Assembly (NCBI RefSeq): GCF_900113315.1
Contig: NZ_FOZG01000002.1
Coordinates: forward strand, 310,001 to 374,000
Reading direction: 5' to 3'
Origin: Sphingomonas jatrophae
GTDB lineage: Bacteria; Pseudomonadota; Alphaproteobacteria; Sphingomonadales; Sphingomonadaceae
Length of the DNA: 64,000 bases
The position numbers and the translations under genes were made by a program. Below, one piece after another: positions 50,550 through 64,000 of the stretch. The notes under the pieces were generated by a model. It saw only the letters and a program-made list of their open reading frames with translations, was not told the DNA's origin and ran no database searches. Every line of letters starts with the position of its first letter. Position 1 is the stretch's first letter.

Positions 50550-51050
50550 TTAGCGGCTGATCAACCCATGTCCGCGAAGGGCATCCAGGATCTCGGCGAT
50601 GGCCGAACGCGCCTGAACGTCAATCGACTCACCGCCACTTGGGTCCGCTACTGCGCCCCGCCTCGCCCCCACGACAGCCTGCCCGCCCACCGTTAAGGAT
50701 TTCGCCGGAATCGCGCCGAGCTGCCACCCCGCGGCCGTGTGCAGCGCCCAGCACTCCGCATCACGCACCCAAAGCACCATCCCGTCTCGCGGTTCGGCGA
50801 AGCGCCAGCCGCCGGTACTCCACCATGCGATGTCGTGCGCTCTGTCTGCCCACGCTCCGCCCGGCGTGCCGCCCAAGATCCATGCCTTACCTTCGGCGGG
50901 GTTCGCGGGCGGTATCTCGGCGCCCATCGTCTCGACAGCGCCCTGCACGAGGGCATCGAGCCGCACGAGCGCCTCATTGTGGAACACGTCCTTCTGCGCC
51001 TGCCCCGCCGCGATCAGCGGCAGCGCCAGCCGAGCCGTATCCTGCATCAT
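50550..51050 (-). CDS. DUF2793 domain protein, end of GTA cluster (166 aa)
   Basis: Begins MMQDTARLALPLIAAGQAQKDVFHNEALVRLDALVQGAVE, the DUF2793 signature, with GKAWILGGTPGGAWADRAHDIAWWSTGGWRF following. DUF2793 proteins sit at the tail end of GTA and prophage tail modules and are thought to be tail-fibre or host-contact parts. ATGATG overlaps the stop of the gp15 gene. Confidence 0.85.
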   Translation of the reverse strand: MMQDTARLALPLIAAGQAQKDVFHNEALVRLDALVQGAVETMGAEIPPANPAEGKAWILGGTPGGAWADRAHDIAWWSTGGWRFAEPRDGMVLWVRDAECWALHTAAGWQLGAIPAKSLTVGGQAVVGARRGAVADPSGGESIDVQARSAIAEILDALRGHGLISR

Positions 51051-53218
51051 GATTCCTCCTCTTCCCCGAAGACGATCTCGACTGGATCGGACACCGCGAT
51101 CGTGCCCAGCTGGCGCACGGCGATGGCGATCGGCCCTGTCTGCCTGTCGGCTGCCTGCGCTGCGGGCGAATAACGCCACACCGGCGAACCGGTCTCTTCC
51201 GTTCGTCCGCCAATGGTGAGCCGATAAGCTTCGCGCTCCTCGCCCAATGGCGCATCCGCCCCGTCCAGCCAGTCCCAGCCGGTGCGGCTCCGGCGCGTCC
51301 AGCGAACCACGACGGTCCCGTCCGGCAGCCGCTCCGCCGTCAGCGCCACAGGGGCCGGCGGGCGCACTGCGCGCGCGCCTACTATCGCCTGCGCCTCCAC
51401 GCCGTCGCGCGTATCGCCACGGCCGACGGCCAGCACGCGAACCGAGCGGCCAATCTGCGCCAGCGGAAGATCGATGGGCAGCAAGGTTTCGCGTTCGACG
51501 AGAACGAAACTCTCGCCCTCGGCATGATGCGTCATAGCCCCCTCGCTCCCGCGCCGCCCACGCAACAGTCTGGACAGGCGGAAGCGGCGTGCGCCCAAGG
51601 GTTCCGCCACGCCGAACTGGATCAGCTCCCCGCCGAGCATCGCCAGGTTGGCCCCGCGAGAGAGCGCGGCATCGTCCCGGCTTTCCAGCCACATCGCATC
51701 ATTGGCGAGCGTCACCTCCACCGCCCCAGTCATGTCAAATTGGAGCGACGATCCCGCCGGCAGCACCGTATCGGCCCACCCCATCGTCGCGGCGGGCGCC
51801 GTGCCGCCCGCCTCTGCCCAGCTGGCGCCCTCGTCCAGGCTGACGAGCAACGCCGCCCGCCGCCAGCCGACACCGGTTCCCGCTGCCGCCACCCACAGCT
51901 GCGGTCGATCCGCGGGAACGCCGTCCAGCGGCGGCAGGTCGAGCAATGCCAACACCGTCTGACCTGCAATCAGGTCGGCATCTCCGGTCACACGCCCGGC
52001 TGCTGCTGGCAGCACCAGCGCTGATGCCGCGCCATGCGCCACCAGCCCCAGTTCGACGATCATGCCGTCCAGTGCCGCGCTCTCCACTCGCCAGCGGCCC
52101 GGCAGTTCGGGCACGGTCACCAGATCGCCCGGCGCAATGCTCATCCGCTGGAACGGCAGCCGCACCGTCGCCCGCCGCCGCTCCGTCCAGTGCAGCGCCA
52201 GCCGCGCTTCCGCGATCGCCTTCGCCTCGCCCGCCGCGAGCGCCGCGGGCAGCTCGACGCGCATCGCCCTGCGCCCCGGCCCGGCACCCGCCCGCGCGCG
52301 CTGGAGGCTCGCCTGCCAGTCACGCGCAGGCTCGTAATAGCTGATTGCCACCTCGTCCGGCAGCGTCCCAGCAGCATCGCGTGAGCGGGCCAACCGCGCC
52401 GCCGGGGCCTCGCCACCCGTGCCCGCCTCCTCGGCAGAGAGCGTGATCTGCGCTCCCGTCCCGAGCGACAGCGCGGTGCCGGTGTCCCGCAGCGGCAGAG
52501 GCAACGCATCCGCCAACGCTTCGATCGCACCGCGCAGACTGTCACCGGTCGCAGCGAAGCCCGCCAGCAGCGGCGTCGCCGGCCCCTCCAGCCCACCGCC
52601 GCTCAGCGCCGCGGTGATCGCGCCAAGGCTCACCGGCCCATCGTCCGCCCTCACCTCGAAGGTGAGCGACGGAATGCGGTTGCCGAAGTCGGCCAGTTCC
52701 AGCCCTTCGAACACCGCATAAGCAATGCCGCGATAAGCCGGCGCTTCGCCCTCCAGCGATGCGATCAGCGGATCGGCCGGCTGCCCTTCGCCGCCATGAT
52801 GCAGGCGAAAGGCAGCGATCCCGCTCTTCCAGTCACCGCCCGCTCCGCGCAGCAGCTTGCCGTCCGCCCAGATCCGCCCAACGCCTCGGATCGCCCGGCC
52901 CGACAGCGCCACTGCGAACGAGGCGGAGTAGCTGTAGTTCGTCACCTTCGGCTGGCCCTTGCCGCCGCCGCTCTTGTATCGATCCTCGATCAGGTCGGTC
53001 GACCAGATCACCGTGCCCGCCACCCGCAGCATGCCGAAGATGTGCGGGATTGCGCTGCCATAGCTGGATGTCTGGACGCTCAGATCGCCCAGCCGCGGCC
53101 CGCGGCGCGACGGCGCCAGCATCCGCTGATCCAACGATTGCCCGATCAGTGCGCCCACCGCACCGCCGATCGGCCCACCCACCAGCGTGCCGACGGTCGA
53201 TAGCACCAGCGTCGCCAT
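51047..53218 (-). CDS. GTA host-specificity/baseplate hub protein (gp15-like, compact form)
   Basis: 723 aa. The N-terminus ATLVLSTVGTLVGGPIGGAVGALIGQSLDQ, the SYGSAIPHIFGMLRVAGTVIWSTDL segment and GRIWADGKLL...AYRGIAYAVFEGLELADFGNRIPSLTFEV match the start of the RcGTA 'megatron'. The second half is the Phage-tail_3 hub. The GTA_TIM domain found between these parts in Rhodobacter-type proteins (about 1300 aa) is absent. Length and content show a compact version. Start at ATG 53218. Confidence 0.88.
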   Translation of the reverse strand: MATLVLSTVGTLVGGPIGGAVGALIGQSLDQRMLAPSRRGPRLGDLSVQTSSYGSAIPHIFGMLRVAGTVIWSTDLIEDRYKSGGGKGQPKVTNYSYSASFAVALSGRAIRGVGRIWADGKLLRGAGGDWKSGIAAFRLHHGGEGQPADPLIASLEGEAPAYRGIAYAVFEGLELADFGNRIPSLTFEVRADDGPVSLGAITAALSGGGLEGPATPLLAGFAATGDSLRGAIEALADALPLPLRDTGTALSLGTGAQITLSAEEAGTGGEAPAARLARSRDAAGTLPDEVAISYYEPARDWQASLQRARAGAGPGRRAMRVELPAALAAGEAKAIAEARLALHWTERRRATVRLPFQRMSIAPGDLVTVPELPGRWRVESAALDGMIVELGLVAHGAASALVLPAAAGRVTGDADLIAGQTVLALLDLPPLDGVPADRPQLWVAAAGTGVGWRRAALLVSLDEGASWAEAGGTAPAATMGWADTVLPAGSSLQFDMTGAVEVTLANDAMWLESRDDAALSRGANLAMLGGELIQFGVAEPLGARRFRLSRLLRGRRGSEGAMTHHAEGESFVLVERETLLPIDLPLAQIGRSVRVLAVGRGDTRDGVEAQAIVGARAVRPPAPVALTAERLPDGTVVVRWTRRSRTGWDWLDGADAPLGEEREAYRLTIGGRTEETGSPVWRYSPAAQAADRQTGPIAIAVRQLGTIAVSDPVEIVFGEEEES

Positions 53219-53219
53219 G

Positions 53220-53591
53220 TCAGATTCTCCAGCAGCCGATGATCTGCCCCGCAGGCGGCCCCGGCACTTCGACGACGCGGCCCGCCCGCGCACAGGCATG
53301 GACGTGGCCACCCGGCACCAGCACCGCCAGATGCAGCTGCCGCGCACCCGCATCGATCAGCATCACGTCGCCTGCATGGCCCGTTGCCACCCTCTCAAGG
53401 CCGGCCGCGTCCAGCGCGGCGACCGCGCCCGCGATATCACCCAAGCGGCGTGGATAGTCGCCCCGCCGCGACACTCCCGCCACGGCCAGCGCCACGCCGA
53501 CACAATCCAGCCCAAGCGCCGGATCGCGCCCCTGCGCGCGAAAGCGCACGCCCACCAGCGCGCGTGCCCGCGCCACCGCATCCTCGGTCAT
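53220..53591 (-). CDS. GTA NlpC/P60-family peptidase (gp14-like)
   Basis: 123 aa. ALVGVRFRAQGRDPALGLDCVGVALAVAG holds the catalytic Cys (DCVG), and GHAGDVMLIDAGARQLHLAVLVPGGHVHACARAGRVVEVP supplies the His. It cuts peptidoglycan peptides at the tail tip during cell entry. It overlaps the DUF2163 gene by four bases upstream. Confidence 0.9.
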   Translation of the reverse strand: MTEDAVARARALVGVRFRAQGRDPALGLDCVGVALAVAGVSRRGDYPRRLGDIAGAVAALDAAGLERVATGHAGDVMLIDAGARQLHLAVLVPGGHVHACARAGRVVEVPGPPAGQIIGCWRI

Positions 53592-54400
53592 GCGCCGGGA
53601 TACCGGGTCAGCAGGTCATTGCCCGGCAGGTGCGGCTCACCGCGGAAGTTCGCCGCATTGGCAAAGCGCGCCACGCACGTCTCGAACCGCCCGTCACACC
53701 CTTCGCGCAGCTCCACCATCTTTCCGGGCGACACCGCAAAGACGGGCGGCTCGCGCAATGTCACCGTCACGCCGTCTGAGCGGAGGATGGCTGCGGCAAG
53801 CCCGCTATTCTCCCCACCGATCCAGCGCAGCCGGCCATAAGCCCAGCCGTTCGGCACAGGCTCGGCCGTGTCCAGCGTCACCGTCGTGCCGTCCACGTCC
53901 AGCACGCGCGCGATCCGCACCCGCGCCGCCATGTCGACCCGGCACCGCGCATCGCCCAGCACGGCCCGGCATTCGGGTGACGTCTGCTCCACCACCGCTC
54001 GGTCCAGGATCGCGCTCGGGCCGATCAGTTCGGCGGTGAAGCGCGCATCCTCCAGCCCCACTGCCCCGAGTTCGCCTCGCGCCAGCAGCAGCGGCGGGGC
54101 GGCCGGATCGCTCCAGTCGCAGGCGGACAGGGTCACCCGCGCCCCATCCCAGCGCCCGGCGGCAAGATCCGCCTCGTTCATCCCCTCTCCGGTCAGCGCG
54201 CCCGCCACATCCAGCGTATCCGCTTCCATCCCATCGGTGCGGCGGATCGCGGACGGCATCATGCCCGGGCTCGCGCGATAGACGAGCCCGCTTATCTCCA
54301 GGTCATGGTCATGGCCGGTAAAGCCCAGCGCCACGCCGTCGCGCCGATCCAGCCGCCACAGGAAGGCGATGGTCGTCAGCGCCGGGTCCAGCCAGCTCAT
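53588..54400 (-). CDS. GTA DUF2163/BR0599-family tail protein (gp13-like)
   Basis: 270 aa. TTIAFLWRLDRRDGVALGFTGHDHDLEISGLVYRASPGMMPSAI and the C-terminal GCDGRFETCVARFANAANFRGEPHLPGNDLL, with paired cysteines, are diagnostic of the DUF2163 plus BR0599 arrangement. It forms part of the iron-sulphur-binding distal tail in RcGTA. Overlaps both neighbours by four bases. Confidence 0.93.
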   Translation of the reverse strand: MSWLDPALTTIAFLWRLDRRDGVALGFTGHDHDLEISGLVYRASPGMMPSAIRRTDGMEADTLDVAGALTGEGMNEADLAAGRWDGARVTLSACDWSDPAAPPLLLARGELGAVGLEDARFTAELIGPSAILDRAVVEQTSPECRAVLGDARCRVDMAARVRIARVLDVDGTTVTLDTAEPVPNGWAYGRLRWIGGENSGLAAAILRSDGVTVTLREPPVFAVSPGKMVELREGCDGRFETCVARFANAANFRGEPHLPGNDLLTRYPGA

Positions 54401-56697
54401 TCGCGCACCTCCACCAGCGGCACGCTCGGCGCCTCGCCGGCGAGGAAGGTGGCGCGGTTCACCTCCAGCCGGTCCTCCTCGAAGCGCACCGGCACGTCGA
54501 AGCGATACCCCGCAGTCACCGCCACGCCAGCGGCCGGCGGCACATCGAACCGAATCTCGCCGAGCGGTCCCAAGGTCCAGCCGCCCACCTGCACGCCATC
54601 CAGCGCCACGCGGACGCTGCCCGCCACCGGGCGCGTGATCCGGCGCACGGCCGCCTCGGGCCCCGCACCATAGCGCTTCACCAGCGGAAAGCCCGTCGCC
54701 ACGCCGTCGCCCGTGCCGATCGCTTGGTCGGTCGCGGCGGGCGCGCCTGTCATGCCCGCCGAACTGTCGTCGAACGGATCGCGGAAACGGAAAGCCTTGG
54801 CCGCACCCCGCCGCGCGCGAAAGAAGGCCAGCAGCGTCTCGATGTCGGCCTGCGCCCGCACGCCGGGGCCTGCGTCATAGCGCATCCGCGCATCTGCCCA
54901 TGCCGTGTTCCGCTGCTCGTGCCCGCCCGCACTCGTCACGATCGCAGTGGAGAAGCCGGGCGCCGCACTCGCCTCCCGCCCCAGCGCCAGCGGGAAATCC
55001 ACCTCATCGAACGCGTCCACCGCCGCCTCCCTCAGATCGAATGCCACGAAGCCGTCGCGCGCCACTTGGGGCAGCGCCCAGACGAAGGTTTCCGCCACAC
55101 CGCGGGCACGCGCCGCCTCCGCCGCCTCGGCGATGGCGCGCCATTGCCGCCGGTCCTCGGCGCGCAGCACGAAGCCGCTGAGCAAATGCTGCTCGCTCAC
55201 CGGATAGCCGAGGCGGGCCTCCATCGCGGCCACGCCCCGCGCGGTGCCGGCCGCATCGCCTGCCACCGTCCAGTCGTAGTCCTCCAGCTGAAGCACGTCA
55301 TAGGCCGGCCGCACCCAGCCCACCGGCACGTTCGCGCGTCTCAGCTCCGGCGCCGCCCGATCGAGCACGGTCGGCAGATAGACGAGCAACAGCACCTCGG
55401 CCCTGGGCGCCGCCGCGCGCACCGCATCCCGCAGCGCGCCGGTGGACGCCGCCAGCATCTCCCCCGCCTGGTCGAGCAACGCGATCTCGCCGGGCGACAG
55501 TGGCGCGCGCACGCTCGCAATCTCGGGCGGGCTCCCGCCGAACGCCGCCCGCGCCGCTTCGTCATAGAGGCAGGGTCGCCCATCCGGCATAACCCACCAC
55601 CACGGCTCACCGATCTGGAACCGCGGCGCATGCCCCGCCGCCACCGCAATCCCGACAAACGCCACCGCGACAGCCTGCAGATAAGACATCGCCGCCTCGT
55701 TCGCGGGCGACAGCAGGGTCGAAGGCGGCACCCAGCCGGTCAGCGCCGGGCTGCCATCCGCCGCCCGCTGCTTCCACGCATCCGGCGCATAGGCATCGAA
55801 CAGCTCGTAGGAGAGCGACACGATCAGCCCGTAATCCAGCGCCTTCGCGCGCGTCGCAAAGTCCCGGTGCCATGCCGCACACGGCCCGCTCAGCGCGCCG
55901 CCCGTAAGCGTCGCCCGTCCGTCCGCGTCCAGCCGCGGATAATGGCTCATGCCGACATAATGGTTGATCGGGCCGCGATAGCCGAGCTGCAGCACCTGCC
56001 GCAGCACCCGGGCGGGCGTCAGATTGTAGCAATCGTCATAGCCCGTCGCGATGCGCAGGCCATGTTCCGGCACCATCGCCTCGCCGATCGCCAGCACGGA
56101 TTTCGCGCCGTCGCAGGCGATCTCGCTCAGGCTCACCCACGCTTCGCTCGGGCTCGCTTCGGCGCCGCCAGGCACATGTCCCAGTGCCACCAGCGACATG
56201 AACAGGCGGTCGATGTCCGCCGGCCACACCCGCTCCGCCTCGCCCGGCAGCAGGAAGCCGCCGTCCAGCGCATCGAAGTCGAGCGTCACCGCCGCGTCGT
56301 CCGGATCGCCCTCGGCATAGTTCCACAGCCGCACGTGCCAGATGCGCGGCGCTCCGCCCCCATCACGCCCCTCGATAGTCAGGGTCGGCCCGTTCACCGC
56401 GTCGAGCGGCATCAGCCCGCCCGAGCGCCAGCGAAACCGCAGCACGCAGCCGGAGAAATCGCGGTCCGTGGCATAGGCCAGCAGCGGATGATCCCACCGA
56501 TCCTCCGCCTCCCAGATCAGGCCCGCCAGATCGCCTGTTTGCTGGAATTGCAGGTCCACGCGCAGCGCATCGGGCGCGATCGTCGTCGCCGCCGCCATCA
56601 TCGGCCGCGGGAAATCCACCGTCCAGAAGCGCGCGTCGAACCGCTTGATCGTGCCCTGTTCCAACGCGTCGTCGCGCGTGGCCAGCCGCCAGCCCAT
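54397..56697 (-). CDS. TIM-barrel-like domain fused to GTA distal tail protein (gp12-like, DUF2460)
   Basis: 766 aa. The C-terminal ~200 residues (DEVDFPLALGREASAAPGFSTAIVTSAGGHEQRNTAWADARMRYDAGPGVRAQADIETLLAFFRARRGAAKAFRFRDPFD) are DUF2460/TIGR02217. The N-terminal ~550 residues are unlike RcGTA gp12: a beta-rich part, then an alpha/beta region with glycoside-hydrolase-like stretches (INHYVGMSHYPRL, GLIVSLSYELFDAYAPDAWKQRAADGSPALTGWVPPS, RFQIGEPWWWV, YDVLQLEDYDW). GGAGG precedes ATG 56697. A TIM barrel is inferred from pattern. Confidence 0.8.
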   Translation of the reverse strand: MGWRLATRDDALEQGTIKRFDARFWTVDFPRPMMAAATTIAPDALRVDLQFQQTGDLAGLIWEAEDRWDHPLLAYATDRDFSGCVLRFRWRSGGLMPLDAVNGPTLTIEGRDGGGAPRIWHVRLWNYAEGDPDDAAVTLDFDALDGGFLLPGEAERVWPADIDRLFMSLVALGHVPGGAEASPSEAWVSLSEIACDGAKSVLAIGEAMVPEHGLRIATGYDDCYNLTPARVLRQVLQLGYRGPINHYVGMSHYPRLDADGRATLTGGALSGPCAAWHRDFATRAKALDYGLIVSLSYELFDAYAPDAWKQRAADGSPALTGWVPPSTLLSPANEAAMSYLQAVAVAFVGIAVAAGHAPRFQIGEPWWWVMPDGRPCLYDEAARAAFGGSPPEIASVRAPLSPGEIALLDQAGEMLAASTGALRDAVRAAAPRAEVLLLVYLPTVLDRAAPELRRANVPVGWVRPAYDVLQLEDYDWTVAGDAAGTARGVAAMEARLGYPVSEQHLLSGFVLRAEDRRQWRAIAEAAEAARARGVAETFVWALPQVARDGFVAFDLREAAVDAFDEVDFPLALGREASAAPGFSTAIVTSAGGHEQRNTAWADARMRYDAGPGVRAQADIETLLAFFRARRGAAKAFRFRDPFDDSSAGMTGAPAATDQAIGTGDGVATGFPLVKRYGAGPEAAVRRITRPVAGSVRVALDGVQVGGWTLGPLGEIRFDVPPAAGVAVTAGYRFDVPVRFEEDRLEVNRATFLAGEAPSVPLVEVRE

Positions 56698-56734: not shown

Positions 56735-57292
56735 CTATCCCGCCCGCTCCAGCGCCGCGCGCACCGCCCGCGCCACCTGCCGGCCGGATTTCGCCAGCGC
56801 CTGCGGCTCGCTCGCGCCCGCGCCATCAATGCGGATGCTCACCCGCACCTCGCGCGCCGCGCCGCTGCCGCCCGTCTCCACCCGCCCGCTGGCGGTCGGC
56901 ACGAACAGCTCGGGGCCGCGCTCGCCAACCAGGTAGGCGCGGCCCGGCGCCACCGGCCCGCCCGTCGCCCGCCCGGGCAGCCCCGCCGCTCCGCCGAGCA
57001 CTCGGCCGAACAGCCCGCCCAAGCCCCCGCCGCCCGCCACCGCCCCGATCCCGGCGGAGACCGCCGCCGCCGCAATCTCGCCCAACACGGACATCGCCGT
57101 CCGCTTCAGGTCGTCGAAGCCCAGCTTGCCGCTCCGCACGCCGCGCAGCAGCGCGCGCTCGATCCGCTCACCCGCCGCATCGCCGACGCGTCCTGCGTCC
57201 GCCAGGCCGCCCCGCAGCCGCGCCACTTCGCCATCGAAGCCGCGCGTGTCGGCACGGACGCGCAGCAGCAGCGTCTCCACCTCGTCATCCAT
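56735..57292 (-). CDS. GTA tape measure protein (gp11-like), short
   Basis: 185 aa. An N-terminal helical part (LLLRVRADTRGFDGEVARLRGGLADAGRVGDAAGERIERAL), a Gly/Ala-rich hydrophobic centre (GEIAAAAVSAGIGAVAGGGGLGGLFGRVLGG) and the GRAYLVGERGPELFVPTASGRVE motif are typical of the GTA tape measure. Much shorter than most phage tape measures, but RcGTA's is also short. Overlaps the chaperone gene by eight bases. Confidence 0.88.
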   Translation of the reverse strand: MDDEVETLLLRVRADTRGFDGEVARLRGGLADAGRVGDAAGERIERALLRGVRSGKLGFDDLKRTAMSVLGEIAAAAVSAGIGAVAGGGGLGGLFGRVLGGAAGLPGRATGGPVAPGRAYLVGERGPELFVPTASGRVETGGSGAAREVRVSIRIDGAGASEPQALAKSGRQVARAVRAALERAG

Positions 57293-57476
57293 CGGGAAAC
57301 CTTTCCATCAGCCGCGCGAGGTCCGCGCCGTCCGCACGCTCGGGCGCATCGCCGGCCAGCGCCTCCAGCACCGCCGCCACTTCCTCCGGCGTTGCCTGCC
57401 AGAAGGCGTCGGGCGACCAGCCCAGCAGCGCCCCCGCCAGCCCGCTCAGCCGGCGGGCTCCTTCGGCGAACGTCAC
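57285..57476 (-). CDS. GTA tail assembly chaperone-like protein (63 aa)
   Basis: MTFAEGARRLSGLAGALLGWSPDAFWQATPEEVAAVLEALAG is the small rcc01693-like protein between gp10 and gp11. It overlaps both neighbours (4 and 8 bases). Presumed to chaperone the tape measure. Confidence 0.85.
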   Translation of the reverse strand: MTFAEGARRLSGLAGALLGWSPDAFWQATPEEVAAVLEALAGDAPERADGADLARLMERFPDG

Positions 57477-57778
57477 CGCCCTTTCAGGATCTGGCGGATC
57501 AGCGCCGCCAGCACCGGCGTCGCCGCCGCCAGCCCCTCTGCCAGCAGCGCCTCGCCCAGCCGTGCGCGGTCCCAGCCCTCGGGCGGATCGACCAGGCAGA
57601 ACCAGAACAGCGCGACCACGTCGCCGAGCGCCAGCTGCCCCGCCGCTGCCCGCTCCACCAGCGCGAACAGCGGCCCCAGCTCCGCCTCCGCCGCCACCAG
57701 CGCGGCGAAGCTCGGCCGCAGCGTCAGCTCCAGCCCGCCCGCGCGAAAGCTCGCCTCCCCGCGTGCGGCGTTAGCCAT
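57473..57778 (-). CDS. GTA gp10-like tail tube/terminator-region protein (101 aa)
   Basis: ANAARGEASFRAGGLELTLRPSFAALVAAEAELGPLFALVERAAAGQLALGDVVALFWFCL matches the GTA gene-transfer-agent family (DUF3356-like) protein that follows the major tail protein. The ATG at 57778 overlaps the major tail gene by eight bases; a longer frame lacks family sequence. Confidence 0.85.
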   Translation of the reverse strand: MANAARGEASFRAGGLELTLRPSFAALVAAEAELGPLFALVERAAAGQLALGDVVALFWFCLVDPPEGWDRARLGEALLAEGLAAATPVLAALIRQILKGR

Positions 57779-58178
57779 TGGCCACCGCGCCGGAGCTTTC
57801 CAGCGCCAGCGTGTAGCTGCGCTCACCATTGAAATCGCCGGCATAATCCAGCCGCGTGACGAGGAACCGGCCTGTCATCGTCTCACCGCTTTCGAAGCTC
57901 AGGCGATAATCGTCGATCGTGCCCGCCAGCGCATTGGCCTTCACCCGCGCCTCGGCGGCGGAGCCCGTGAACACGCCCGCCGCGCTCACCGACACGGATC
58001 GCACGCCCGCGCCCGACAGCAGCTCGCGCCATCCGCCCGAACCCTTGTTGGTGACAACCACCGCTTCGCCGTTGATCGACAGCTGCGTTGTCCGCATCCC
58101 CGCCACGGTCGAGAAGACGGGCACCGTGCCGCCATCCCCCACCTTCAGCAGAAAGGCCGAACCCTTCTCGATCGCCAT
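57771..58178 (-). CDS. GTA major tail protein (TP901-1 family, gp9-like)
   Basis: 135 aa: AIEKGSAFLLKVGDGGTVPVFSTVAGMRTTQLSINGEAVVVTNKGSGGWRELLSGAGVRSVSVSAAGVFTGS, the TP901-1 tail tube fold. It polymerises into the tail tube. ATG 58178 preceded by GGGACGGG-type ribosome binding site (GGAGGGACGGG upstream). Confidence 0.93.
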   Translation of the reverse strand: MAIEKGSAFLLKVGDGGTVPVFSTVAGMRTTQLSINGEAVVVTNKGSGGWRELLSGAGVRSVSVSAAGVFTGSAAEARVKANALAGTIDDYRLSFESGETMTGRFLVTRLDYAGDFNGERSYTLALESSGAVANG

Positions 58179-58214
58179 GTCCCGTCCCTCCATGATTGTG
58201 GTCCGCGCGAGGGC

Positions 58215-59701: not shown

Positions 59702-60862
59702 TCAGGCGGCGGAGAAGCGCATCAGCTTGATCGCCTCGCTGTTCGCCACACCGCCGCCGATCCGCTTGGTGGCGTAGAAGTGGACGAACGGCTTGTTGCT
59801 GTAAGGATCGCGCAGGATCCCCGTCTCGCGCCGCTCGGCGATCAGATAACCGACGGCGAAGTTGCCGAATGCGATGCTCAGCGAGCCCGCCTCGATGTCC
59901 GGCATGTCCTCGCTCTCCACCACCGGATAGCCGAGCAGGCTGTCCGGCTGGCCGGCGGCGAGGCCCGGCTGCCACAGGAAGGCGCCGTCCGCGGTCTTGA
60001 ACTTGCGGATGGTGGCGCTGGTCGCGGCATTCATCACGAAGCTGGCGCCCTGGCGATAGGGCGCGCGCAGCGCCTGCACCAGGTCGATCAGCTTGTCCGC
60101 GGCTCCTACCGGGAAGGCGCCAGCCACGCCCGTTGGCAGCACCTGCACCGTGCCGAACGGCCGCGTCGCATCGCTCGCGGTCGACATCGGATAGTTCAGG
60201 AAGCCCTTCGGCCGGTTGATCCCCGATCCGTTGACGAAGGCTGCCCCCTCCGCCCGAGCGAACTCGGCCGCAATCTCGCGCGCCAGCCAGTCCTCCACGT
60301 CGAACGCGGCATCGTCCAGCATCGCCTGGCTCGCCGCCGGATTGGCGTAGAGATCACCCATGGGCGGCGCCACCTCGACGAAGGTCGGCGTCTCGCCCAG
60401 CGGACGCACACCGTCCTCCGCCGCCCAGCCCGAGGCGACACCACCCGTCGTGATCAGCTTGCGGTAGCCGGCCGAACCGACCTTCACCACATTGGCCAGC
60501 GACCGGATCGGGCTGATCGACTTCAGCACCGCGTCGATCCGCGCGTCGATCTCCTCCGGCACGGCATAGCCGCCCGCCCCGTCGCTCGTGCCGACGAAGC
60601 TCTTCAGCTCCACGCCCGCCATCGCGCCCTGCCGCAGATAGCGTTCGACGAATGCGCGCGCCGTCCCGTCCTCGCTCTTGGCGCCGGTCAGCGCCGGCCG
60701 CCCGTCGGCCCGCACGCGCGCCTCCACCTGTTGGCGCAGCGTCCCCAGCTCCGCCTTCAGCGCGCCGATCGCCGCCTCCGCCGCCACCGCGTCGAAGCTC
60801 GCCTCCAGCACGTCCGTGCCCGTATCCGCCTTCGTCTCGTAATCCATGCCCGCCGTCTCCAT
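59702..60862 (-). CDS. GTA major capsid protein (HK97 fold, gp5-like)
   Basis: 386 aa. An N-terminal coiled-coil scaffold region (ASFDAVAAEAAIGALKAELGTLRQQVEARV) is followed by the capsid domain: FVGTSDGAGGYAVPEEIDARIDAVLKSISPIRSLANVVKVGSAGYRKLITTGGVASGWAAEDG...FVNGSGINRPKGFLNYP...LLGYPVVESEDMPDI. The scaffold is removed by the gp4 protease. Start ATG 60862 or 60847. Confidence 0.95.
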   Translation of the reverse strand: METAGMDYETKADTGTDVLEASFDAVAAEAAIGALKAELGTLRQQVEARVRADGRPALTGAKSEDGTARAFVERYLRQGAMAGVELKSFVGTSDGAGGYAVPEEIDARIDAVLKSISPIRSLANVVKVGSAGYRKLITTGGVASGWAAEDGVRPLGETPTFVEVAPPMGDLYANPAASQAMLDDAAFDVEDWLAREIAAEFARAEGAAFVNGSGINRPKGFLNYPMSTASDATRPFGTVQVLPTGVAGAFPVGAADKLIDLVQALRAPYRQGASFVMNAATSATIRKFKTADGAFLWQPGLAAGQPDSLLGYPVVESEDMPDIEAGSLSIAFGNFAVGYLIAERRETGILRDPYSNKPFVHFYATKRIGGGVANSEAIKLMRFSAA

Positions 60863-61595: not shown

Positions 61596-62714
61596 TCAGC
61601 CTGCCGCCTCGATCCCCAGCATCGCCCGCTTCTCGTCCGGCGACAGGAAGTCCGCCGCCGCCACCTGCCGCCAAAGCAGCTCGCGGTCCGCCGCCAGCGC
61701 GGGCACCGCGTCGAGGTCCGGCGCCAGCGCCGCCTCCGGCCACCAGCCGCGCAGGGCCTGCACCAGCCCGTCGAGAATCTTGGTCGCGAGCGGCAGGATG
61801 GTCAGGCGCCACAAAGCGCGGTTCGCCTCGGCATAATTGGCGTAGGTGGCGTCGCCCGGCAGGCCGAGCAGCATCGGCGGCACGCCGAACGCCAGCGCGA
61901 TCTCGCGCGCCGCCGCCGCCTTCAACCCGACGAAGTCCATGTCGGCGGGCGACAGGCTCAGCGCCTGCCACTTCAGCCCGCCTTCCAGCAGCATCGGCCG
62001 CCCGGCATTGGCGGCCCCCGCGAAGGTCCGCTCCATCTCCGCCTGCAGGCGCTCATATTGCTCGCGGGTCAGCGCCGCACCGCGCTCGCCGGGATCATAG
62101 ACCAGCGCGCCCGAGGGCCGCGCCGCATTGTCCAGCAGCGCGCGGTTCCAGCGCGTCGCCGGATTGTGCAGCGTCACCGCCCCCATCGCCGCGCCCAGGC
62201 ACCCGATGCCGAGATGATCGTCCAGCGGATGCTGCGTCCGGATATGGATCGCCTGCGGCTGCCCGTCCGGCCCTGCCGTCGCGAAACGCTGCACCGTCTC
62301 GCCGGCGCGGTAGCGATAGGCGACCGGCCAGCCCCGCGCGTCCAGCTCGGGCGTCACCCGCTCCGGCCGCAGCGCATAGAGCTCGCACGGCATGCCGTCC
62401 GCGCCTGCCGCGACCTGGACGTAAGCGTTGCCGTGCAGCACCAGCTGCGCCGCCACCGCCTCCAACAGCGATTGGCCCGCGCTCGTCGTCCGCACCAGCG
62501 CGATCAGCCGCGCCTCGCCCTTCAGCGTCAGCGAGGCGACGCCCTCCGCCACGATCCGCACCGCGCGCTGCGCCACCGGATTGCGCAGATAGGCCTCGCG
62601 CAGCTCCGTCTCATAGCTGATCGGCGTGTCGCCGCCGACCGTCCCCATCCTCATGCCGCCGCTGAGCGCCGGGCGCACGCCCTCGCCCGCCGGCCGCCTG
62701 CCGAACAGCTTCAT
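61596..62714 (-). CDS. GTA portal protein (HK97 family, gp3-like)
   Basis: 372 aa: SYETELREAYLRNPVAQRAVRIVAEGVASLTLKGE, SLLEAVAAQLVLHGNAYVQVAAGADGMPCELYALRPERVTPELDARGWPVAYRY, PMLLEGGLKWQALSLSPADMDFVGLKAAAAREIALAFGVPPMLLGLPGDATYANYAEANRALWRLTILPLATKIL. All are portal family hallmarks. ATG 62714 has AAGGA eight bases upstream. Confidence 0.95.
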   Translation of the reverse strand: MKLFGRRPAGEGVRPALSGGMRMGTVGGDTPISYETELREAYLRNPVAQRAVRIVAEGVASLTLKGEARLIALVRTTSAGQSLLEAVAAQLVLHGNAYVQVAAGADGMPCELYALRPERVTPELDARGWPVAYRYRAGETVQRFATAGPDGQPQAIHIRTQHPLDDHLGIGCLGAAMGAVTLHNPATRWNRALLDNAARPSGALVYDPGERGAALTREQYERLQAEMERTFAGAANAGRPMLLEGGLKWQALSLSPADMDFVGLKAAAAREIALAFGVPPMLLGLPGDATYANYAEANRALWRLTILPLATKILDGLVQALRGWWPEAALAPDLDAVPALAADRELLWRQVAAADFLSPDEKRAMLGIEAAG

Positions 62715-62799
62715 CGCCCATCCTTTCGAGTTCACGTTCATCCCGGCGCCAGGTCGGGCTCGCAGGAGACGAAGCGCACCGCCGCTCCGCCTCACCCCC

Positions 62800-63999
62800 T
62801 CACAACAGCCGCATCCCCGGTGCCGCGCTCCGCTCCAGCATCAGCGCGCTCAGCGCCCACACCAGCGCGTCCGCGCGGTCGGGCGATCCCTCGCCCGTCC
62901 AGCCGGTCGCGGAGAAGCCCGACAGCTCCTCCTCCAGCTCCGCCATGCGCCCGACATGGCGCACCCGGCCCCGCGCATAGAGCGTGGCCACCGGCTCCGC
63001 CCGCGCCGCCTTGCCGCGCGCGGCATGGACCAAAGTCACCGGCAGCCGGTCGTCCGCCGCATGCAGCACCGCGCGCACCATCGCGCCGCCATTGTTCGCC
63101 TCCGCCACCACCCGATCAGCGGCGTGGCGGCCTGCGGCATCGGCCACCGCCCGCGCCCACCGGTCGGGGCTGCCCGCCGAGACGCTCGCATCTTCCAGCA
63201 CATAACCGTTGCCGTCCGCCCCCAGCCCGGCCGCGACGATGCCGCACGCATCGCCCTGCTCCCCCGCCGGCGGATCGACGCCGATCACCACCCGCACCAG
63301 ATCGGGCGCCGCCGCGATCCGGCAGCGGGCCAGCGCAGCGGGCGTCCACAGCGCATCCTCCGCCACCTCGACCAGCAGGCCGTCCAGCTCCTGCCGGCCG
63401 ACCGGCGTGCCGTCATATTGCGCGCGCATCTCCGCCAGGAAGGCGCGCGGCAGGGTGGAGCGGGCGTCCCATGTCGTCCCCCGCGTCACCGCCGCCTTCG
63501 CCGCCAGGTCGCGCAGAAACGGCGTCGGCCGCGGCGTGGTCGTCGCCACCGCCCGGGGACGCGCGCCGATCCGCAGGCCCAGCTGCAAGTTGGTCCACGC
63601 CTTGTTCGGCTGCGTCCACTTGGCCACCTCGTCTGCCCAGGCCGCGTTGAACTGCGGCCCGCGCAAACTGTCCGGCTCGGCCGCCGAATAGACCTCCGCC
63701 ACCGCGCCGTTCGGCCAGCGCAGCCGGCCGAGACTCGGCTCCCAGCGCGGCCGCATCGCCGGCGGCCCCAGCGAGAGCAGCCCGCTCGCCCCCTCCACCA
63801 TCACGCTGCGCGCCTCACCCGCGGTCGCGCCGACCAGTGCGATGCGGAAGCTCGGATGCGCCTCCGCCTGTGCGCGCACCCACTCCGCCCCAGCCCGCGT
63901 CTTGCCGAAGCCGCGGCCCGCGAGGATCAGCCACGTCGCCCAGTCACCCTCCGGCGGCAGCTGCGCCGGCCGCGCCCACAGGCTCCAGTCATGCTCCAT
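62800..63999 (-). CDS. GTA large terminase subunit (gp2-like), 5' end at window edge
   Basis: Visible 399 aa. ATPase: LILAGRGFGKTRAGAEWVRAQ (Walker A) and AAWADEVAKW (Walker B region). Nuclease: VRVVIGVDPPAGEQGDACGIVAAG and VVAEANNGGAMVRAVL with RADALVWALSAL. It packages host DNA into GTA heads. The first ATG visible ends at the last base of the window, so the true N-terminus may lie outside. Confidence 0.93.
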   Translation of the reverse strand: MEHDWSLWARPAQLPPEGDWATWLILAGRGFGKTRAGAEWVRAQAEAHPSFRIALVGATAGEARSVMVEGASGLLSLGPPAMRPRWEPSLGRLRWPNGAVAEVYSAAEPDSLRGPQFNAAWADEVAKWTQPNKAWTNLQLGLRIGARPRAVATTTPRPTPFLRDLAAKAAVTRGTTWDARSTLPRAFLAEMRAQYDGTPVGRQELDGLLVEVAEDALWTPAALARCRIAAAPDLVRVVIGVDPPAGEQGDACGIVAAGLGADGNGYVLEDASVSAGSPDRWARAVADAAGRHAADRVVAEANNGGAMVRAVLHAADDRLPVTLVHAARGKAARAEPVATLYARGRVRHVGRMAELEEELSGFSATGWTGEGSPDRADALVWALSALMLERSAAPGMRLL

Positions 64000-64000
64000 C

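Follow-up and report, generated by a model that had tools for sequence, protein, structure and literature searches.

A phage N4 sheath-type TIM barrel fused to the distal tail protein of a probable gene transfer agent in sphingomonads

What is a TIM barrel doing on the distal tail (Dit) protein of a head–tail gene cluster? The question is raised by the end of a 64,000-nucleotide stretch of the Sphingomonas jatrophae genome (assembly GCF_900113315.1, contig NZ_FOZG01000002.1, positions 310,001 to 374,000; hereafter the window). An earlier note on this DNA had set its tail genes against those of the gene transfer agent (GTA) RcGTA, with a gp15 of about 1,300 amino acids (aa) containing a TIM domain and a short gp12. 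That contrast is borne out: the RcGTA megatron measures 1,304 aa with a peripheral TIM domain and its Dit protein 210 aa, whereas the window encodes a Dit protein of 766 aa and a megatron of 723 aa. The name hub, which the note gave to gp15, belongs to g13, g15 being the megatron (PMC7296036). Drawing on sequence comparison, structure models and analogy, we propose that the Dit hexamer probably bears a collar of six barrels that bind or cleave glycans, in an RcGTA-like GTA of a sphingomonad type. The features on which this proposal turns are as follows.

54397–56697, minus strand: gp12 homologue, the fused Dit protein, 766 aa, with DUF2460 (Pfam; RcGTA Dit match)
56083–56649, minus strand: NCTSP_N beta-rich domain, residues 17–205 (PF23844, E = 6e-92; model)
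55048–56070, minus strand: TIM-barrel_NCTSP, residues 210–550 (PF23845, E = 8e-166; model confidence mostly >90; match to N4 gp64, Z 29.9; conservation)
54403–55008, minus strand: DUF2460, the RcGTA-type Dit domain, residues 564–765 (PF09343, E = 6e-77; RcGTA Dit 6tba_6B, E = 2e-47)
51047–53218, minus strand: gp15 homologue, a short megatron without peripheral barrel, 723 aa (alignment to the RcGTA megatron; model; structure matches)

The fused Dit protein and the short megatron

The 766-aa gene, whose ATG is preceded by the ribosome-binding-site-like GGAGGGGG, encodes three Pfam domains, NCTSP_N, TIM-barrel_NCTSP and DUF2460, all scoring well over their cut-offs, and the first two together identify an NCTSP module by profile. 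The Dit domain is complete, with the last 205 residues covering nearly the whole of the RcGTA Dit protein (E = 2e-47) and also matching that of Roseophage R4C (E = 1e-44). Ahead of it, residues 271–551 resemble gp64 (E = 6e-43) and residues 14–90 gp65 of phage N4. An AlphaFold2 model built from 62 aligned rows (predicted local distance difference test (pLDDT) 88.8, predicted template modelling score 0.82, the barrel mostly above pLDDT 90) folds residues 210–550 into an eight-stranded (beta/alpha)8 barrel in which E364 follows strand 4 and E472 closes strand 6. Profiles and model together confirm a glycoside-hydrolase-like TIM barrel on this DUF2460 protein, as the note had read it; of residues 1–550, for which the note asked whether the fold is a TIM barrel, 210–550 form the barrel, and the model places 1–205 outside it as a beta-rich domain, described as a beta-sandwich (NCTSP_N). 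The fused N terminus is a module of two domains, a beta-sandwich and a glycoside-hydrolase-like barrel, and its family is the one that builds the non-contractile tail sheath in N4. In 79 of 80 relatives kept from named genomes, the N-terminal domain (NTD), barrel and Dit domain share a single reading frame (two frames in L018), which excludes a fusion by chance.

The 723-aa gp15 homologue aligns with the RcGTA megatron in two blocks, residues 8–195 with 20–208 and 217–706 with 790–1290. Only 21 residues separate these blocks, leaving no room for a barrel, and the peripheral TIM domain, reported as residues 230–744 of the RcGTA protein (PMC7296036), has no counterpart. The megatron model (pLDDT 86.8) consists of an N-terminal helix and beta-rich domains with no eightfold beta/alpha run, and in structure comparison it resembles the R4C and RcGTA megatrons and tail-tip proteins of phages JBD30, Chi, T5 and lambda; the similar size of the JBD30 and Chi proteins hints that a barrel-less megatron is the general siphophage state. 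No Pfam barrel family matched at E 0.01 in the 44 members of the megatron alignment (the window protein and 43 relatives). Across 71 complete frames in named genomes the megatron spans 439–900 aa from stop to stop, the sole frame under 700 aa (L084) appearing broken. PF13547 (GTA_TIM), the megatron barrel family, gave no match at E 1 in the fused Dit protein or the gp15 homologue, and none in the genome of the window. Structure prediction of both proteins, one of the checks that the note had asked for, thus returned a barrel on gp12 and none in gp15, and neither of the two results that the note would have taken as a refutation came up. A barrel on g12 and none in g15 explain both of the Sphingomonadales length differences in these genes that were noted in 2020, in a report whose accessible text leaves them without explanation.

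The barrel rim and a proposed glycan-handling collar

By structural alignment, the top solved-structure match of the barrel is the N4 sheath subunit gp64 (Z 29.9, root-mean-square deviation 2.6, 300 residues, 31% identity), followed by the Thermus beta-galactosidase 1kwg (Z 23.4; which we take to be of glycoside hydrolase family GH42), the C-terminal domain of PgaB (22.2; presumably GH153), beta-amylases and GH35 enzymes. The barrel has its fold in common with these enzymes (Z about 19–23), but identity to the matches other than N4 is 8–17% and the catalytic arrangement does not match. In N4 itself the counterpart barrel is split, its first beta–alpha units aligning with gp65 374–416 and the remainder with gp64 115–407 (chains I and M of PDB 9lc0); the two chains of the N4 sheath heterodimer may therefore jointly make up a single TIM barrel.

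TIM-barrel active sites sit at the C-terminal rim. Among 61 barrels, 15 of which come from frames without a Dit fusion, conserved rim residues include D221, E298, E364, W366–368, E472 and W540, and positions conserved at 95% or more account for 20 of 64 at the C-terminal rim and for 34 of the 279 others (Fisher P = 4e-4). The N-terminal rim, taken as a control, has 9 of 63 such positions against 45 of 280 elsewhere (P = 0.7), that is, no enrichment. The motifs DD, GMSHY, IGEPWWW and Q[IL]EDYDW persist in N4, and together with the conserved C-terminal rim they give the barrel the look of a sugar pocket.

How might such a pocket be used? Dit forms a hexamer and the megatron a trimer in both RcGTA and phage R4C (PMC10276861, PMC7296036), and the N4 sheath wraps its tail with six-fold symmetry (PMC12633501); because Dit is hexameric there, each particle would carry six barrel copies. 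These would form a collar around the end of the tube, above a three-fold baseplate with a barrel-less megatron, and their most likely task is to bind, and perhaps also to cut, some conserved polysaccharide of the surface or matrix while the particle nears the outer membrane of its recipient. A 2026 preprint describes TspA, a detachable, biofilm-degrading RcGTA tailspike, six trimers of which attach to the tube, to the insertion (OB) domain of Dit and to the peripheral domain of the megatron, and presents it as a Rhodobacterales trait lacking in other Alphaproteobacteria (PMC13420450). By analogy, the Dit-fused collar could take the place of TspA in sphingomonads.

Several observations weigh against this proposal. 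Clan GH-A enzymes have a conserved Glu after strand 4 and an acidic nucleophile after strand 7; E364, at the strand-4 Glu position, is invariant (61 of 61 rows), but no conserved acid follows strand 7 (residues 504–513, 61 barrels). For that reason we do not file the barrel as a clan GH-A enzyme, and its catalysis may be lost or different. Nor is a barrel obligatory: in a sample of 192 genomes across the class, DUF2460 occurs in 33, of which 19 have GTA_TIM, 3 have PF23845 and 11 have neither. The barrel profile matches in two pieces or partly in G243, G251, G275, G328, G332, G387:C47 and G399, which points to broken frames, insertions or internal deletions, the gene being in decay or altered in some lineages. 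Finally, the guanine–cytosine (GC) content, 0.71–0.745 across the 2-kb windows between 51 kb and the end of the window and 0.63–0.71 in 40–51 kb, offers a modest contrast, two flanking windows reaching 0.70–0.71.

Could the module instead be purely structural, a sheath or collar stiffening the joint between tube and baseplate, its barrel left without a sugar role? That its best match is a subunit of a sheath that wraps the N4 tail six-fold is what such a part would predict, as are the missing strand-7 acid and a barrel as conserved as the portal protein. We nevertheless regard a purely structural role as unlikely, since conservation gathers at the open C-terminal rim, where D221, E298, E364, E472 and tryptophans have the make-up of a sugar pocket, while the opposite rim is not enriched, and since N4 gp65 is itself reported to bind the receptor (PMC12633501). 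A glycan-handling collar remains our preferred reading.

The cluster as GTA or prophage

The minus-strand head–tail cluster that closes the window runs, in order, from the terminase through the portal, the capsid, the tail tube and gp10 to a short protein where the tape measure would be, then on to Dit, the hub, another short protein at the place of g14, the megatron and finally DUF2793. Besides the Dit and megatron genes given above, it comprises the following.

62800–64000, minus strand: large terminase, extending past the window edge (PF03237/PF17289 on the whole gene, at 2801–4090 of L386, a longer stretch of the same genome (G000) that reaches upstream of the terminase)
61596–62795, minus strand: portal protein (gene order; name presumed from sequence and position)
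59702–60862, minus strand: major capsid protein (gene order; name likewise presumed from sequence and position)
57771–58193, minus strand: tail tube protein (PF06199)
57473–57844, minus strand: GTA gp10 homologue (PF11836)
56735–57292, minus strand: short protein of 185 aa at the place of the tape measure (gene order; matches to tape-measure PHROGs at E = 4e-8 and weaker, and at E = 1e-57 to a PHROG of unknown function)
53588–54400, minus strand: gp13 homologue, the baseplate hub (PF09931, TIGR02218)
53220–53591, minus strand: short protein at the place of g14, the tail peptidase (position and gene order; one PHROG minor-tail match, E = 5e-6; no match to Pfam or NCBIfam profiles)
50550–51062, minus strand: DUF2793 protein, the cluster end (PF10983, E = 3e-27)

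This is a compact head–tail cluster in RcGTA order, as expected of an RcGTA-like GTA, with capsid and portal taken as presumed above and with RcGTA gene numbers that are in part our own assumption. It lacks the peripheral TIM domain in the megatron, a trait of RcGTA itself and not of the GTA class. A GafA-type (DUF6456) gene lies elsewhere in the genome (E = 2.5e-40), and no integrase or replication gene was found among the seven open reading frames (ORFs) scanned beyond the terminase and the two on the other side, all of them metabolic or envelope genes except one without a match. A published classifier reports 132 RcGTA-like clusters over 207 Sphingomonadales genomes, equivalent to 110 of 169 operational taxonomic units (OTUs; PMC6821227). 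On its gene content, the cluster is likely an RcGTA-like GTA of a sphingomonad type.

Relatives point the same way. At least 551 were found among at least 595 pattern hits in a scan of named genomes; of the 80 loci kept, 77 have titles naming sphingomonad taxa, some genera being assigned there on our own assumption, and three are unspecific (L046, L059, L078). The single-frame count of 79 was made with locally built profiles and includes one locus, L034, with an extra Dit piece. The ten-gene order from portal to DUF2793 is present in 53 of the 80, the others being partial or slightly different and many of them cut by contig or flank ends. In the 49 loci possessing all seven segments, the mean p-distance is 0.340 for the barrel, 0.337 for the NTD, 0.380 for Dit, 0.458 for the hub, 0.538 for the megatron, 0.285 for the capsid and 0.341 for the portal. 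Barrel distances track those of Dit, hub, megatron, capsid and portal (r 0.67–0.77; as high in 0 of 500 permutations). These values indicate a module that has passed down together with the rest of the cluster under continued constraint. As for the altered surface recognition that the note raised as a possibility, a barrel about as conserved as the portal, and more so than hub and megatron, speaks against a fast-changing receptor-binding role.

That the cluster might be a prophage or a decaying remnant, its barrel an ordinary phage receptor-binding or depolymerase part without a GTA role, appears improbable to us. The sheath-type module is widespread in phages, with 431 records aligning to at least a portion of the protein (a count that takes in matches to Dit alone), and among the 60 matches listed 59 hit the N-terminal module and not the Dit domain. 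Some barrel copies are broken, and a prophage-like relative is known: L227, a second cluster in a related genome, whose barrel precedes the hub, looks like a prophage and has a 100% match in the 41-kb viral contig L233. Against a prophage origin stand the single compact cluster beside metabolic and envelope genes with no integrase among the scanned ORFs, its raised if modest GC, the GafA-type gene, a single frame that 79 of 80 relatives keep intact, the correlated distances along the cluster, and the reported breadth of RcGTA-like clusters over the OTUs of the order (PMC6821227).

Two neighbouring genes deserve mention. A wecB-like UDP-GlcNAc 2-epimerase and a UDP-sugar dehydrogenase adjoin the cluster on the same strand upstream of the terminase (L386:4692–7258), and N4 infection is reported to depend on wecB. 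We rejected a link to the N4 receptor glycan as coincidence, neither gene occurring in the 10-kb upstream stretches of 20 relatives, 19 of which contain the terminase. Likewise wecB appears in none of the 80 genome loci, whose upstream reach is small (over 600 nt ahead of the terminase frame in 16 of them). A UDP-sugar dehydrogenase homologue does occur in 9 of the 80 within the fetched downstream flank (for example L012:16575–17891), in eight cases on the cluster strand, about 5 kb past the end of the fused gene.

Barrel arrangements at the tail tip and comparison with known systems

Among Sphingomonadales genomes, PF23845 occurs in 104 of 197 (that of the window included), DUF2460 in 107 and GTA_TIM in none; three DUF2460 genomes lack the sheath-type barrel (G001, G232, G245). 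A smaller sample of 40 relatives gave 22 with PF23845 and none with GTA_TIM. In the class sample, the three PF23845 genomes comprise two of the window's family, both fused, and one of another family, hub-type; two further genomes have GTA_TIM without DUF2460, and none has both barrels.

Three arrangements recur: the sheath-type barrel on Dit, the same barrel ahead of the hub (ten prophage-like loci), and GTA_TIM in the megatron. Of 80 viral loci recovered with the query that had also given the 80 named-genome loci, 79 have NTD, barrel and Dit in a single frame; in L158, as in L018, the NTD and barrel occupy one frame and Dit another. A hub-type query added 74 viral loci (51 Dit-type, 8 hub-type and 15 with the barrel alone or unresolved), and a megatron query 80, of which all have GTA_TIM, 74 show Dit as a gene of its own and none has a sheath-type barrel. 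The two barrels occur together in none of 325 classified loci. As these sets were chosen by query and many contigs are short, they establish that the patterns exist without overlap and imply no frequencies. Many of the short IMG/VR contigs catalogued as viral (L089–L168) resemble chromosomal GTA clusters; the fused protein of one, the 14-kb L089, is 100% identical to that of the window. An unannotated 5.4-kb record from human faeces titled 'Bacteriophage sp.' (L172, MT840053.1) holds a fragment of the same cluster type at 58% identity, with the fused gene in two frames, and may not be phage.

In quick maximum-likelihood trees, subsampled and unrooted, of Dit (43 rows: 19 Dit-type including the window, 6 hub-type, 18 GTA_TIM) and of the megatron N terminus (46 rows: 19, 9 and 18), each arrangement forms one side of a branch. 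Shimodaira–Hasegawa-like approximate likelihood ratio supports in the two trees are 99 and 99 for GTA_TIM, 98 and 87 for the hub-type, and 52 and 89 for the Dit-type. In the barrel tree (61 rows) the hub-type forms one branch (support 99), and the Dit-type needs three changes because the broken or unresolved frames L018, L158 and L251 lie inside it.

The local rearrangement of the note, which had a barrel change place from gp15 to gp12, does not fit a barrel this common across the order and arrangements that each occupy one side of a branch; a different barrel, not a transposition, seems to have been used. That one ancestral barrel passed from gp15 to gp12 within the tail module is very improbable: the two never occur together and both are glycoside-hydrolase-like TIM folds, yet they belong to separate Pfam families without cross-match, comparison of the fused-Dit barrel profile (62 rows) with that of the megatron peripheral region (16 rows) gave a probability of 1.1% (0.2% for NCTSP_N), though these profiles are shallow and the result is not decisive, and the barrel of gp12 comes with a partner of its own, NCTSP_N, and has separate relatives in N4 and Loki-like phages. 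The RcGTA and R4C megatron chains were absent from the 50 structure matches listed for the barrel, which is not evidence of difference.

More tentatively, with confidence just short of even, we suggest that the glycan barrel is an exchangeable part of GTA-type tail tips in Alphaproteobacteria and can sit at any of three addresses: within the megatron trimer (as GTA_TIM), in front of the hub, or in front of the Dit hexamer, the barrel being sheath-type at the latter two. The Dit version would have been fixed in a sphingomonad ancestor, giving six covalent barrels against the three megatron barrels of Rhodobacterales GTAs, which have TspA in addition around that same ring, and the collar would be a built-in device for crossing exopolysaccharide. 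The exact functions of the TIM barrel in the megatron, the sugar-binding domain in the hub and the insertion domain in Dit are stated as unknown in the 2026 preprint (PMC13420450). An order whose GTAs bear another type of barrel on another tail-tip protein offers a natural experiment on the role of such a barrel and on three-fold versus six-fold need, and the difference in placement makes the job of GTA barrels easier to test. Surveys that require coverage of RcGTA g12 or g15 would probably benefit from knowing of the fusion.

Pfam already names both N-terminal domains, and the finding is a clear, order-wide variant of a known machine. We found no description of the fusion in the open-access literature, subscription papers lying outside this search, and no joint mention there of DUF2460 and a TIM barrel; a paper on an Erythrobacter phage, as far as its accessible text goes, merely lists a DUF2460 ORF.

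Set beside RcGTA (6tba/6teh; PMC7296036), the window cluster has the same Dit domain and the same megatron iris/adhesin and central/fibre-binding regions, all directly matched, a hub recognized through TIGR02218 and an RcGTA-like gene order; unlike it, RcGTA has a Dit without a barrel and a megatron with the peripheral TIM domain that is missing here. The Roseophage R4C baseplate (8gtc; PMC10276861) has RcGTA-type Dit, hub and megatron as well, but its Dit has 214 aa and its megatron holds a mannanase-like peripheral domain. Of 16 GTA_TIM megatrons, 14 also match GH113.

Closer to the barrel, the hub-type clusters L224 and L227 and eight viral loci have NCTSP_N and barrel, Dit and hub domains and, where the contig reaches, a short megatron. 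They differ in fusing the barrel ahead of the hub (barrel–hub open frames of 919 and 1,078 aa in L224 and L227) and in having Dit as a separate preceding gene (216 and 211 aa; seen in 8 of 10, the contig being cut in 2). Acinetobacter phage Loki ORF17 (900 aa) and its counterpart in Escherichia phage Halfdan (915 aa) likewise carry NCTSP_N and barrel within a tail-tip gene block, but a separate annotated distal tail gene precedes them, and their C termini gave no match to Dit or hub profiles (Pfam and a locally built hub profile). We assign no hub role to these two proteins, since neither Pfam nor the hub profile supports one and PHROG 6040 only suggests it. The N4 sheath gp64:gp65 (9lc0, 9yf4, 9yf5) shares an NCTSP_N-like stretch, the barrel family and the rim motifs with the window protein; unlike the sphingomonad version, it divides its barrel sequence between gp65 and gp64, neither of which matches the Dit domain.

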